Shown here: positions 36,832-41,692 of the stretch, one piece after another
Position numbering within the stretch: position 1 is the first letter of the stretch
How the letters are laid out: every line of letters starts with the position of its first letter
NCBI GenBank assembly: GCA_947090755.1
Contig: CAMUPF010000002.1
Location: 1-64,000, forward strand
DNA length: 64,000 nucleotides
DNA from: an uncultured Candidatus Melainabacteria bacterium
GTDB lineage: Bacteria > Cyanobacteriota > Vampirovibrionia > Gastranaerophilales > Gastranaerophilaceae
Direction of reading: 5' to 3'
Translations under genes and position numbers: made by a program
Notes under the pieces: model-generated
Told to the model about the DNA's origin: nothing
Seen by the model: only the letters and a program-made list of their open reading frames with translations
Databases searched by the model: none

Positions 36832-36987
36832 CGTTACCTCTTATACATTTTATAAAAAGTATTTTACAAAAAAATTGCCCTTCGGGGTTTTTATATTAAC
36901 TTTTGTAACAAAAGCCACCCCAAACTAAAGATTTACCCGTATTTTTCCGACAAAAAGACTAAGGAAACTTTGGCAAAGGAATGTTTT

Positions 36988-39900
36988 ATGTCTATTGATG
37001 CAAGAGTAAAAGCTATAATAGAAAACAGAAAAAACAACTTCTACGATCTTTTTGACGAATTCAAAGACGAAGACGTGAACTATTTTGATGGTTATTCCGA
37101 ACCAAAATTTGATTTTGAAGCCGGTTCTGATGAAGAAAAGATTTATAATCAAAAAATGGCGCGTTTTAAAGCTTTAAGCGCACGCATAGAATCAAACGCA
37201 AATATTTACTACACAGATGACGAATCAAGCGACTTCTTCGGATATAGTTACGAAGAAATTATCGGTATGGCAAACAACGGAACGGTTATTCCTGATGAAG
37301 TCTTAAGCTGGGCTTACTCTATGGCAGAAAAGAACCCTCAGGGTGAAACAACCGATACCGCCGAAGACACTAATGACGCACAGGAATTATACAAAGCGTT
37401 AAAACAAAATCCTAAACTTAACATCAAAACAATCACCAGAATCTTCGCGTCTAAATGTATTGAGCAAGAAGATGAACTTGAAGCCTACCTTGACGAAATC
37501 GCACCTATTGAAAGAGAAATGGAAAGTGCCAGAGTTGAGGCTGAAACTCAAAGAGCCGACGCATTGATAAAAATTAAAGATTTGGCAAAAGAATGGAAAG
37601 ACTTAAAATCAAAAGTTGAAGGCGGCGAAGAATTATCTGCCGAAGAACAAGCAAGATTTGAAGAATTAAAAGACGAATTTGGCGCAGAAGACAAAAAATA
37701 TCAAAAAGCCATTGACTCCGCAACTAAAAACTTCACCAAAATCGGTGAAAGATTGACATTTGTAACCGGCAAAGCCGACACGACCTTCGACTTTGGAGAA
37801 CAAACCGTTGAAGTAGCAAAAGAACTTTCCGAGTTTGAAAAAACACACAAAAGAACCGGAATCTTTGGCGGAATGATAGCAATGGGAATTGCCGGTGTTC
37901 TTGGTATAGACGGATTCGGCGGTGTAAAACGATTCTCTGAAATCGCTACAACAATAGGTACCAACACCCAGTTCTTTGCAGAAGATGTTAATGATGTGAT
38001 TAATGAAGTCCAACTTCTTATGGACGACGTTGCAGATACTGCAAAATTCGACATCAACGACCCGTCACATAAAGTCGAACCGCTCACTAACGACCCAAGT
38101 ATTGATGTTCCAGAACTCAAAACAGTTACAAAACCAAAAGGCGTTGGCACAGAAGAAGTTTCATCTGAATCAGAAGAAGAAGAGCCGGTTGAAGGCGAAG
38201 AAGTCGTTGAAGACGCGACAACAGAACAACCGGTAGAAGAAAACGTAGAAAATCCTGAAGGCGAAACTGAAACCACAGAAGAAACCGACGAAAACAGCGA
38301 ACCCGAAGAACCCGTCGAAGAAGACCCACGTACCAAAGAACAACAATTGATTGAAGAAATGAATCTTCAAAACGAAAAACTTTCTCAAATCAAACCGGTT
38401 ATAAAAGCTGACGGTAAAACATCAACCGCACTCGGTATCGAAAACGTTAAGAAAACAAAAGAACTTGAACCGCAAATTCCTCAAATCACAGAGGAAGCAA
38501 TCGCTGTTGCGCGCGCAAAACGTGACAAAGAAGCAGAGGCGAAAAACAACGCCGGTACCGCAAGTTCTGAACTTGAAGCACAAGGCCAAACCGAACAAAT
38601 CGCAGAAGGTACTCAAGAACTTGAAGAAGATAAAAAAGAAAAAGAAACTATCTTCGATCAATACAACAACGATTTCCAACAAGATAAAGCTAAAAACGCA
38701 CAGTTCTCACAAGATATCCAAAACAGCAACACCGAATCTAACACAGGTTTAGAACTCGGTGCCCAAGGTTCTGCGACCGGAATGGAAAGAACAAATATAG
38801 GTGCAGGCGAAATCGCAACAGGCACAATGCTTCTAATGAACTGGATGAATCCGGTTTCAATTATGCTCGGCCGTAAATTAATCAAACTTGGCAAAGAAGA
38901 TACCGCGCTTGGCGGAAGTTTATTAGGTTCAGGATTAGCATTAACAGTCAACAGCGGTGTAACAATGGCTGTAAATTCGGTTGCAAGCGACAGCGTTGCG
39001 GCTTCCAATGAAAAAACCGACGAATCAGCGGCTATTGTAAAAGGCTTTGAAACAGACGTCAACGCCGCAGTCGAAGAACAACTTGAACAGGATAAAGAAG
39101 CCGAAGAAGCTAAAGAAACAGAACAACCTGATGACAAGAAAGCAGGAAAAGAAGAAGACAAAGAAGTTACACCTGAAGATTCCGGTGACGCGGTAGGCGA
39201 TGCAGAAGATGAACAAGAAAATGCTGAAAACGAAAACGAAAAAAATGAAAAAATCGCGAAGAAAACAGATAAAAAATTAAAGAAAAATGATAAAAAATTA
39301 AAAAAGACTGATAAACAGGCTAAAAAAAGCGACAAAGAAGCTAAGCTTGAAGACAAAAAAGGTGTACAAAGCGGCAAACAAGGTGAAGAAGAAGCTAAAA
39401 AAAGTAATACCGATGAAGCCAATGGTTCAGCAGAAAAAACAACAGAAGATTTAGCAGAAACCGCTGTAATTTCAGAAGAAGTTACACAATTAGCAACAGA
39501 AGCGGAACAAGAAGCCAACGACTTACAAAAAGCAAGTGCAGAAGCTCTTTCTGAAAACCAGGCAATTGTTACGGAAATGGGCATAATTAATAATGAGTTG
39601 CAACAAGATGATGCTAAACTCAAAGATATTGAAAACCAAATCCAACAAGAAAGTAATAAGCTTGCCGAAGATAATGCTCAGCCGGCACAGCAGCCTCAAC
39701 CACAACCGGTTCAGCAACCTAAAAAGGCACCTAAAAAACAACCGCAAAAACCGGCAGAAGAAAAAGAAACTCCGGCGGAAAAAGCTGAAAATGCAAAAAT
39801 TGAAGCAGATATTAAAAAAGCCAAAAAGCAATCCAACGCTCAGGCTCCTAAAAAAGCTCCTGCACAAACGACACAACCGGAAACTGCGCCGGAAGGCTCT

Positions 39901-41388
39901 GACAAAATTGAATATTCTTCTGACAAAGAAAAACAACCATCTTTTGTAGGTTTCGTTGCACAAAGTGACAGCCTTGCTTCCGGCAGTGCACTTGCAGGTT
40001 CAAACACGACTTCCACGCAGCCACAAGAAAATAACAATCAAGGTAACGGCGCAAGCATTATGGCATTGAAGAATGCACAAAACAAGAAAAAAGCAGCGCA
40101 AAAGAAACAACAAAATAAAACCACAAGTGCAAACCCTGCCGGCAATACAGCCCCACAACAAGATGAAAAACAAATCATTACAGCAAACAGAACTACTGAA
40201 AAACCATTTGATATCAATTCAATGGACGGCGGCAACGATAAAGTACAAGGTTTAAGGCAAAGTGCAGAAGCTCTCAGAGCACAAGCATTTCATAAACAAG
40301 CACGGTTGCGCGATATGTATATTCGCGCTAACAACAATGCTATGCAAAGAATTGCAGAAGAAGCACGCATTCAAGCAGAAAATGCAAGAAAACAACGTTT
40401 AGCACAGGAAAAACAAGAACGTATCGCTAAAATCAAACAATATGCAGGCTATGTTCAAGGCATTGGCAGCTTGACAACGACAGCCGGTATGATTGTTGAA
40501 AAATGCGGTACTGCACAAGTTTCAGCCGGTACTGCTCAGGTCACCGCAGGTACATCACAGATGACAGCAGGTCTTACACAAGTCACAACAGGCACAGTGC
40601 AAGTTACTACGGGTACTACAATGGTTACAACCGGTACCGCACAAGTAACCGCCGGAACGACTCAAATAACAACCGGTACAGGTCAGGTAACGTCCGGTAC
40701 AAGTATGATTTCATCAGGTACGACAATGATTTCAACCGGAACTCCTATGTTATCAAACCCATTTACAGCAGCTGCCGGCGCTGCATTAGTAGCAGGCGGT
40801 ACGACTATGGTTGTTAATGGTTCAAGCTTAGTCGCAACCGGAACAGCGATGATTGCCACGGGAGGAACACAAATCGCAACCGGTACTTCAAATATCGCAA
40901 CCGGTACTTCAAATATCGCAACCGGTAGTGCTAATATAAGTTCAGGCAGTGCCCAAATTTCAGCCGGATCTGCACAGATAATCACCGGTACTGCGCAGAT
41001 TGCAAGCGGTACTAGCTTAGTTGCAACCGGTGCTACTTTACAAACTATCGGTACAATTGTGACCGCGGCCGGCGCCGCTACAAGCGCCGGCGCTGATATC
41101 GCTAACGGCAACATACTCGGCGGTATTGCTTCAATCGTTGGTGCAGCAGCTTCTGTCGTCGGTTGCGCCGCTCCTGTTTCTCAATTAGGAAACGCCGCTA
41201 TGCAACTCGGTTCTCAAGGTATTGCAGTAGCCGGTCAACTCACCACTTCCGGCGCGGGTCAAGACAACGGTAACCAGCAACAAGACCAGAAGAAAAAGAA
41301 AAAATTCAAACAAAACGCAAGAACTCAAGGTATTATGGACAAAGCCGCACAACAAAAACAAGCCGTTGGCAACAGATTCAACAAATAA
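36988..41388 (+). CDS. Very large lineage-specific repeat protein
   Basis: 1466 residues from the ATG at 36988 (SD AAAGGA; an upstream TTG at 36970 has none). Order: a folded, acidic N-terminal part (1-330); Glu/Thr/Val-rich spacer (about 370-460); helical segments; two hydrophobic stretches (about 610-665); a Lys/Asp heptad block KKTDKKLKKNDKKL (about 757-785); Gln/Pro/Lys-rich linkers; and a long Gly/Thr repeat region (about 1174-1355) of 7-residue units such as TGTAQVT, with a glycine- and alanine-rich hydrophobic end before a basic tail. No signal peptide. The repeats could form a beta-solenoid or membrane-inserting structure. No family recognised. Confidence 0.8.
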   Translation: MSIDARVKAIIENRKNNFYDLFDEFKDEDVNYFDGYSEPKFDFEAGSDEEKIYNQKMARFKALSARIESNANIYYTDDESSDFFGYSYEEIIGMANNGTVIPDEVLSWAYSMAEKNPQGETTDTAEDTNDAQELYKALKQNPKLNIKTITRIFASKCIEQEDELEAYLDEIAPIEREMESARVEAETQRADALIKIKDLAKEWKDLKSKVEGGEELSAEEQARFEELKDEFGAEDKKYQKAIDSATKNFTKIGERLTFVTGKADTTFDFGEQTVEVAKELSEFEKTHKRTGIFGGMIAMGIAGVLGIDGFGGVKRFSEIATTIGTNTQFFAEDVNDVINEVQLLMDDVADTAKFDINDPSHKVEPLTNDPSIDVPELKTVTKPKGVGTEEVSSESEEEEPVEGEEVVEDATTEQPVEENVENPEGETETTEETDENSEPEEPVEEDPRTKEQQLIEEMNLQNEKLSQIKPVIKADGKTSTALGIENVKKTKELEPQIPQITEEAIAVARAKRDKEAEAKNNAGTASSELEAQGQTEQIAEGTQELEEDKKEKETIFDQYNNDFQQDKAKNAQFSQDIQNSNTESNTGLELGAQGSATGMERTNIGAGEIATGTMLLMNWMNPVSIMLGRKLIKLGKEDTALGGSLLGSGLALTVNSGVTMAVNSVASDSVAASNEKTDESAAIVKGFETDVNAAVEEQLEQDKEAEEAKETEQPDDKKAGKEEDKEVTPEDSGDAVGDAEDEQENAENENEKNEKIAKKTDKKLKKNDKKLKKTDKQAKKSDKEAKLEDKKGVQSGKQGEEEAKKSNTDEANGSAEKTTEDLAETAVISEEVTQLATEAEQEANDLQKASAEALSENQAIVTEMGIINNELQQDDAKLKDIENQIQQESNKLAEDNAQPAQQPQPQPVQQPKKAPKKQPQKPAEEKETPAEKAENAKIEADIKKAKKQSNAQAPKKAPAQTTQPETAPEGSDKIEYSSDKEKQPSFVGFVAQSDSLASGSALAGSNTTSTQPQENNNQGNGASIMALKNAQNKKKAAQKKQQNKTTSANPAGNTAPQQDEKQIITANRTTEKPFDINSMDGGNDKVQGLRQSAEALRAQAFHKQARLRDMYIRANNNAMQRIAEEARIQAENARKQRLAQEKQERIAKIKQYAGYVQGIGSLTTTAGMIVEKCGTAQVSAGTAQVTAGTSQMTAGLTQVTTGTVQVTTGTTMVTTGTAQVTAGTTQITTGTGQVTSGTSMISSGTTMISTGTPMLSNPFTAAAGAALVAGGTTMVVNGSSLVATGTAMIATGGTQIATGTSNIATGTSNIATGSANISSGSAQISAGSAQIITGTAQIASGTSLVATGATLQTIGTIVTAAGAATSAGADIANGNILGGIASIVGAAASVVGCAAPVSQLGNAAMQLGSQGIAVAGQLTTSGAGQDNGNQQQDQKKKKKFKQNARTQGIMDKAAQQKQAVGNRFNK
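40506..41060 (+). repeat. Tandem 21-bp repeats encoding Gly/Thr heptapeptides
   Basis: About 25 imperfect units, broken once (about 40740-40830) by a unique stretch. Units read as TGTxxVT / AGTxQIT / GTSNIAT. Two adjacent units (about 40880-40920) are identical at the DNA level, showing recent duplication. Confidence 0.85.
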
Positions 41389-41417
41389 TTGTAATTTTCA
41401 TAAACTTATAGTATACT
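41389..41417 (+). promoter_or_regulatory. Promoter of the micropeptide mRNA
   Basis: TTGTAA (41389-41394), 17 bases, TATACT (41412-41417). It starts one base after the stop of the large repeat gene. Predicted transcription start is about 41424. Confidence 0.6.
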
Positions 41418-41438
41418 TGCAATACGGGTAAGTACCTA

Positions 41439-41491
41439 CACTTCCTCTGACACACGCGATTATATGAAGAAATCGGTCAGTAAAGGAGGTG
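41439..41491 (+). promoter_or_regulatory. Leader hairpin that buries the micropeptide SD
   Basis: CACTTCCT (41439-41446) pairs with AGGAGGTG (41484-41491), the SD itself, with one G-U pair. The helix continues after a 3-base bulge with CTGAC/GTCAG (41447-41451, 41476-41480) and CGATT/AATCG (41457-41461, 41471-41475). The apical loop is ATATGAAGA (41462-41470). Full-length mRNA should therefore be translated poorly. Confidence 0.65.
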
Positions 41492-41497
41492 GTTAAA

Positions 41498-41596
41498 TTG
41501 AGATTAAGGTTTGAAAAATTTTTGTACCTTTTATGCAAAGTGTACAAAAAAAGATTTCCAGTCCTAGAACTACTGGAAATCTTTTTAGAACATTAA
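41498..41596 (+). CDS. 32-residue micropeptide, TTG start, antisense to a small RNA
   Basis: Begins MRLRFEKFLYLLCKVY and ends LLEIFLEH. It is amphipathic and positively charged, with two hydrophobic clusters (FLYLLCKVY and FPVLELLEIFL). The AAAGGAGGTG before it is nearly a perfect match to the 16S 3' end, 6 bases from the TTG. The second half of the frame encodes the hairpin that also serves as terminator on both strands, so a plus-strand transcript could end just before the stop codon. Together with SD occlusion and an antisense RNA this resembles a type I toxin gene. Coding status is unproven, and the plus transcript could instead be a non-coding RNA. Confidence 0.5.
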   Translation: MRLRFEKFLYLLCKVYKKRFPVLELLEIFLEH

Positions 41597-41657
41597 ACTC
41601 ATAGGGTATGAAGTGAGTCCTTAAACTATGGTTTAGTCTTTAAGGGCTCATCCCTAT
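41546..41657 (-). ncRNA. Small antisense RNA of about 112 nt
   Basis: Driven by a consensus promoter (41692-41664) and ended by the terminator at 41585-41546. The predicted 5' end AUAGGG pairs with CCCUAU (41606-41601), enclosing an inner stem GAGCCCUUAAA/UUUAAGGACUC with one C-A mismatch. The unpaired side strand contains ACUUCAUA. The last 50 bases are antisense to the 32-codon frame. It is not a known family that I recognise. Position and structure suggest an RNA antitoxin or a regulatory RNA. Confidence 0.65.
41551..41587. terminator. Bidirectional terminator shared by the convergent RNAs
   Basis: AAAGATTTCCAGT and ACTGGAAATCTTT form a 13-bp perfect stem with a 9-base loop. The minus strand is followed by seven T, the plus strand by five T. 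Confidence 0.85.
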
Positions 41658-41663
41658 ACGTAT

Positions 41664-41692
41664 ATTATTTACTATTTTAAAGCGCTTGTCAA
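41664..41692 (-). promoter_or_regulatory. Consensus promoter of the small antisense RNA
   Basis: On the minus strand TTGACA (41692-41687), exactly 17 bases, AATAAT (41669-41664). It starts 8 bases after the mtnA stop. The same -35/-10 pair occurs in pilin-like copy 2. Confidence 0.75.

Follow-up and report, generated by a model that had tools for sequence, protein, structure and literature searches.

The question raised by positions 41389-41692 of the window, the 64,000-nucleotide stretch of an uncultured Candidatus Melainabacteria genome analyzed here, is whether a short frame overlapped by an antisense RNA belongs to a type I toxin-antitoxin module, as the first-pass annotation of this DNA had suggested, or whether, in the alternative that it also offered, no peptide is made and both transcripts are regulatory RNAs. 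All of the sequence parts that it had described, on both strands, were located where it had placed them. On the plus strand, a promoter detected by consensus scan (TTGTAA-17-TATACT, 41389-41417) precedes a predicted start of the peptide mRNA at about 41424-41426; the mRNA 5' end, GGGTAAGTACCT (41426-41437), is placed at 41426, where matches to the leader model (R2, below) begin, and includes GTACCT (41432-41437), the 5' half of a contact between the two mRNA ends. A leader hairpin supported by folding and covariation (CACTTCC..CTGAC with GTCAG..GGAGGTG, 41439-41491) pairs the Shine-Dalgarno (SD) sequence AAAGGAGGTG (41482-41491), which is near-universal among copies of the locus, and is followed by a 32-codon ORF with a TTG start (41498-41596), the translation of which is LRLRFEKFLYLLCKVYKKRFPVLELLEIFLEH, that is, the peptide (M)RLRFEKFLYLLCKVYKKRFPVLELLEIFLEH of class e (see below). 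The 3'UTR contains a hairpin, ATAGGG...CCCTAT (41600-41657), identified by covariation, which harbors the 3' half of the contact, AGGGTAT (41603-41609), and the opposite strand of which corresponds to the 5' stem-loop of the antisense RNA. On the minus strand, a promoter with 11 of 12 consensus matches (TTGACA-17-AATAAT, 41664-41692) would drive a predicted antisense RNA of about 112 nt (41546-41657, both ends predicted) that is complementary to the 3' half of the ORF and to the 3'UTR, and ends with an intrinsic terminator, a 15-bp hairpin followed by a U-run, located within the ORF (41548-41587). The adjacent gene (36970-41388) encodes a 1472-aa protein with long charged stretches and C-terminal (T/S)GTxQ(V/I) repeats that is conserved in congeners.

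By themselves, the promoter matches in the window are at chance level (three found, 3.0 expected in the promoter/terminator scan), and because this first scan gave chance-level counts, consensus promoter and terminator matches were dropped as evidence and the case was built on comparison among copies. Both the leader and the antisense RNA fold far better than shuffled sequences (z about -4). A DNA search of 59 related genomes, the kind of check that the first-pass annotation had proposed, found this piece of the window repeatedly in its own genome and in relatives and revealed a multi-copy family with a conserved frame and compensatory changes in the hairpins. There are at least six copies in the same genome, and the six strong ones (C2, that of the window, C3, C18, C15, C8 and C13) each encode a peptide of a different class, with the C13 peptide read by eye. 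The order of parts in the copies is fixed: a 5' GGGTAAGTACC, a hairpin that hides the SD and carries a conserved CACACACGATT..GAAGAAATCGG loop, the SD itself, an ORF of 21-32 codons, a 3' stem-loop that starts with (A)TAGGG, and a convergent antisense promoter. In the plus-strand promoter, a TANNNT box most often begins some 15 nt before the conserved GGG (in 27 of 72 copies), and the -35 element is not conserved.

Two covariance models built from separate regions, R1 from the 3' end with the antisense promoter and R2 from the leader, recover loci in the same genomes, often as the same pairs. Matches to R1 are present in 97 of 241 sampled genomes of the order (about 40%), with 96 of these in the window's own family of Gastranaerophilales and one in another; in a phylum-wide draw, 60 of 292 genomes have matches, and those among the matches listed are all in the window's own family. 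Two loci that match the leader model (L051, G015:C17; L049, G032:C20) do not have the usual 3' end and are possibly variants of this design with a different antisense promoter. Searches of phage and plasmid records and viral contigs with the window DNA and with two exact motif patterns gave no match, so that, at the sensitivity of these searches, nothing points to a reservoir in phages or plasmids. By eye, a small gene for an XRE-type helix-turn-helix protein was seen directly upstream of several copies, on the same strand (L031, L034, L036, L072, L133, L134, L140 and others), an adjacency that could reflect chance or a functional link. An XRE-type regulator as an obligate neighbor was rejected, being absent from most copies and from the window.

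The comparison of copies bears directly on the peptide frame. When 95 distinct units were defined through the antisense promoter motif, an ORF (at least 18 codons, with a start 11-17 nt from the SD; observed lengths 21-32) was found open in 89 of them against 6.5 expected from dinucleotide shuffles. Relatives in which the RNA structures persist and the frame is broken are thus the exception, as the first-pass annotation's peptide would have it: only six units lack the frame. The start codon is ATG in 79 of these ORFs, GTG in nine and TTG in one; the third codon position varies most and the second least, and the pooled pN/pS is 0.57, which favors a selected frame, although a value that is only moderate also counts to some degree against the type I reading. 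The peptides have a median length of 24 aa, a mean GRAVY of 1.6 and a mean net charge of +1.8, and fall into at least seven mostly hydrophobic classes (a to g), split by our own sequence patterns. In class e (YK(E/K)K.P.LE.LELFLKS), to which the window peptide is assigned, its relatives in L036, L037, L090, L094 and L104 all comprise 32 aa and align gap-free; L043 appears, by eye, to be an additional shorter member. Broken copies are found in L111, L148, L159 and L172.

In accord with the first-pass annotation, which recognized no family for the peptide, searches of the peptides against Pfam and NCBIfam gave no match and the search against PHROGs a single match at chance level (E 0.94). A TisB-like identity of class c was considered and rejected, there being no significant alignment. 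Judging from the conservation of the ORF among the units, the peptide is a selected frame. We consider it extremely unlikely that the ORF is incidental and that both transcripts act solely as regulatory RNAs: the RNA structures are indeed strongly conserved and the antisense terminator accounts for part of the A-rich, inverted-repeat make-up of the ORF, but the frame is open far beyond expectation and its spacing from the SD hardly varies, the classes differ in their DNA hairpins and yet are nearly all hydrophobic, and class-e ORFs all have 32 codons.

The leader hairpin is conserved as a structure. Two-sided changes occur in all nine consensus pairs, 86.7% of cells are paired, and none of 500 shuffles equals this; the 24 two-sided cells compare with 8.6 by shuffling, and the signal is lost when the partners are slid. 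In the window, the core of the SD has a mean paired probability of 0.999 and the leader folds with a z of -4.2; the SD is paired in most copies, at 0.87 against 0.68 with shuffled leaders. Thus, in the computed structure of the mRNA, the ribosome-binding site is hidden, as in type I systems.

The antisense gene is conserved at both of its ends. The promoter core, ATTATnnACnAT with TTGTCAA, is almost invariant in 21 aligned copies, and the terminator of the window copy, located within the frame, has a z of -4.1. Terminator-like hairpins followed by a U-run are found in the antisense direction in 86 of the 89 ORFs and in the sense direction in 43; with the surrounding stretch added, antisense terminators are present in 79 of 88, where synonymous recoding predicts 41, and in the antisense direction the ORFs fold better than their synonymous recodings (mean z -3.1, with 73 of 88 below -2). 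The terminator therefore exceeds what the amino acids require, so that the same bases encode the peptide and the end of the antitoxin RNA. At the level of sequence, then, the antisense gene, with its near-invariant promoter and in-ORF terminator, overlaps the toxin gene, another feature of type I loci. Comparison with Rfam, at the gathering cut-off and at E up to 1, gave only chance matches (eukaryotic RNAs and SurC).

The 3' hairpin, too, is preserved by compensatory change (89.8% of cells paired, 32 two-sided cells, equaled in none of 500 shuffles). In addition, the leader bases that follow GGGUAA complement, in most copies, the bases that follow (A)UAGG of the 3'UTR, with several pair sets observed: GUACC with GGUAC or GGUAU, GCUCC with GGAGU, GCACC with GGUGU, GUUUC with GAAC, and GUGCC with GGUAC through a wobble pair. 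Cognate contact energies are stronger than those of all 20,000 permutations, for 76 copies and likewise for 23 copies with distinct 3' elements; the kinship of copies weakens this permutation figure and leaves the several different compensated pair sets standing. In the minimum-energy fold of the window mRNA, the 3' stem-loop forms and the 5'-3' contact does not, because AGGG is common to both, and the mRNA may therefore switch between the two structures. The contact is conserved and covarying, and is retained on covariation alone. By analogy with AapA and Hok (PMC6733600), it would be expected to affect translation.

The peptide classes are mixed with respect to the RNA parts that surround them. 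Placed on a tree of the regulatory chassis built without the ORF, the classes need 26 changes where the least possible is five, and well-supported branches alone force at least five changes for class a, four for b, three for c and two for e. At orthologous-looking sites 3' of a glycolate-oxidase-like gene, class c is encoded in L089, class b in L125 and class g in L139, and one contig, L104 (G119:C28), carries five units in tandem, with classes a, f, e, f and f in turn. The exchange of peptide classes on a common regulatory chassis is, on this sequence evidence, likely rather than proven, given that the chassis alignment is short and the tree quick. The broader proposal of a combinatorial type I superfamily is about as likely as not: a single covarying RNA chassis, made up of the SD hairpin, the 5'-3' latch and the stem-loop and promoter of the antisense RNA, would have received by recombination seven or more dissimilar toxin cassettes that each carry an antisense terminator in frame, yielding varied, independently addressed loci. 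Tandem arrays of two to five units were noted in L104, L112 (G209:C22), L155 and L157. Class f (NISLLLIFLILYILKNGSYLNR; L048, L008, L056, L081, L104) shares the antisense promoter and differs in its 3' element and in the start of its leader (AGGGTAAAAGA).

The site of the window copy itself is variable. Of six congeners, four (G001, G002, G004, G006) have the same convergent genes, for a long repeat protein and for mtnA, close together without the locus and separated by no more than a plain shared terminator; the remaining two have different neighbors at this site. By eye, apparent small type II toxin-antitoxin genes (HTH and RelE/HigB-like) replace the long repeat gene beside mtnA in G003:C2 (L193). 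Such absence from one gene pair in four related species, together with the many dispersed copies, might be taken to indicate a MITE-like repeat, the copies of which are passively carried. This explanation has very little probability, considering that no common ends or terminal repeats were seen among the copies (by eye) and that the SD, the ORF, the two promoters, the terminator and the covarying helices are each separately conserved.

Within the family, the window copy is a divergent outlier and may be a weak or decaying member. It has the only TTG start among the 89 ORFs and the lowest hydropathy of all peptides (GRAVY 0.26, best 18-residue mean 0.7), and on the plus strand its ORF contains an internal hairpin followed by five T's that could truncate the mRNA. 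That the family is real and this particular copy degenerate, with little or no active toxin, is a possibility that we hold only tentatively; it would be compatible with the type I reading of the family and in line with the broken copies found elsewhere, but the SD, the leader hairpin, the class-e motif PxLExLExF and the antisense promoter and terminator are all intact in the window.

Taken together, comparison of the copies demonstrates a repeated, selected design with intact frames, covarying helices and 5'-3' contact, and a conserved antisense gene, and the locus very likely belongs to a new superfamily of type I toxin-antitoxin systems, in which the mRNA would be locked through its 5' and 3' parts and the toxin cassettes would be exchangeable. 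The type I-like interpretation of the first-pass annotation is thus supported by the preserved frame, the compensated hairpins and the peptides, most of which share the strong hydrophobicity of type I toxins, and is extended by the multiplicity of the locus, the covarying contact within the mRNA and the mixing of peptide classes on one chassis. We infer transcription, toxicity, antitoxin action and activation by loss of the antisense RNA or by 3' trimming, as follows. The plus strand would yield an mRNA for a peptide of 21-32 residues, which for most copies would form a hydrophobic helix and enter the membrane of the cell that makes it. The new transcript would remain untranslated while the leader hairpin hides the SD, and pairing of GUACC in the leader with the first bases of the 3'UTR, GGUAC/U, which is shown by covariation, would hold the mRNA ends together. 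From the convergent downstream promoter would come an antisense RNA, about 110 nt long, that spans the 3'UTR as well as much of the ORF and ends at the terminator written in the ORF's own codons; by way of the 3' stem-loop, it would pair with the mRNA in competition with the 5'-3' contact, leaving the message silenced or destroyed. A drop in the antisense RNA or trimming of the mRNA 3' end would then allow the peptide to be made.

Type I architecture alone is no proof of toxicity, and the peptides might instead be small membrane proteins that tune a transporter or an enzyme and are kept at a low level by the cis-antisense RNA. Some copies do keep their site from one related species to another, with L032, L040 and L041 all placed after the same gene. 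Nevertheless, such a role is improbable, since toxins would better account for seven dissimilar classes on one chassis, for variation in copy number and tandem arrays, and for the empty sites and broken copies; tandem arrays and presence or absence at one site are typical of type I modules.

The loci form a large family with evolutionary support, found in an animal-gut lineage within the wider cyanobacterial phylum and invisible to Pfam, NCBIfam and Rfam; as a natural experiment, it would allow the evolution of the RNA control to be followed apart from that of the proposed toxins. With two covariance models and a set of peptide classes at hand, the family is directly testable. In the open-access literature searched, no paper was found with both 'type I toxin-antitoxin' and 'Melainabacteria', and the two papers with 'Gastranaerophilales' and 'toxin-antitoxin' concern other subjects according to their titles and abstracts.

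According to a 2025 report, knowledge of type I systems had been confined to Proteobacteria, Firmicutes and Tenericutes; a candidate from Microcystis aeruginosa, MsoT1/MsoA1, with an antisense RNA antitoxin and putative toxins of 39-81 aa, is presented there as the first in Cyanobacteria (PMC12390103). The loci described here resemble MsoT1/MsoA1 as candidate type I systems of the same phylum with an antisense antitoxin and differ in the length of the putative toxins and in that MsoT1/MsoA1 comes from another organism group and is a single-genome prediction, with no shared chassis seen in its description. Ldr, TisB and Ibs are small hydrophobic helical peptides, and Ldr and Ibs occur in tandem copies, as do the peptides here; identity with Ldr or TisB was rejected given that the Pfam controls match PF13940 and PF13939 and our peptides match neither. 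In TxpA/RatA and BsrG/SR4 of Bacillus, a convergent antisense RNA overlaps the 3'UTR and, within the toxin ORF, its 3' part, the same layout as here, whereas our peptides have no Pfam match; to our knowledge, neither a 5'-3' contact nor class exchange has been described for these systems. The antisense RNA of Hok/Sok covers the leader, in contrast to the 3' side here, and no Hok match was found in Pfam. The likeness lies in the mRNA: the full-length Hok mRNA is locked by a 5'-3' interaction, as cited in PMC6733600, and a similarly locked full-length mRNA is proposed here. The AapA/IsoA systems of Helicobacter and relatives are multi-copy, chromosomal type I modules with a small helical peptide, a hidden SD and a long-distance 5'-3' interaction in the mRNA (PMC6733600), and thus share with the present family the multiplicity, the small peptide and the hidden SD, along with a 5'-3' contact that covaries here. 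Identity with AapA was rejected on the SD criterion, given that the 3' end masks the SD in AapA and the leader hairpin does so here. Moreover, by description, the present loci are set apart by a contact that joins the extreme 5' end (GUACC) to the start of the 3'UTR and by a convergent antisense RNA that originates downstream and terminates within the ORF, suggesting that 5'-3' locked toxin mRNAs exist outside the Hok and AapA groups.
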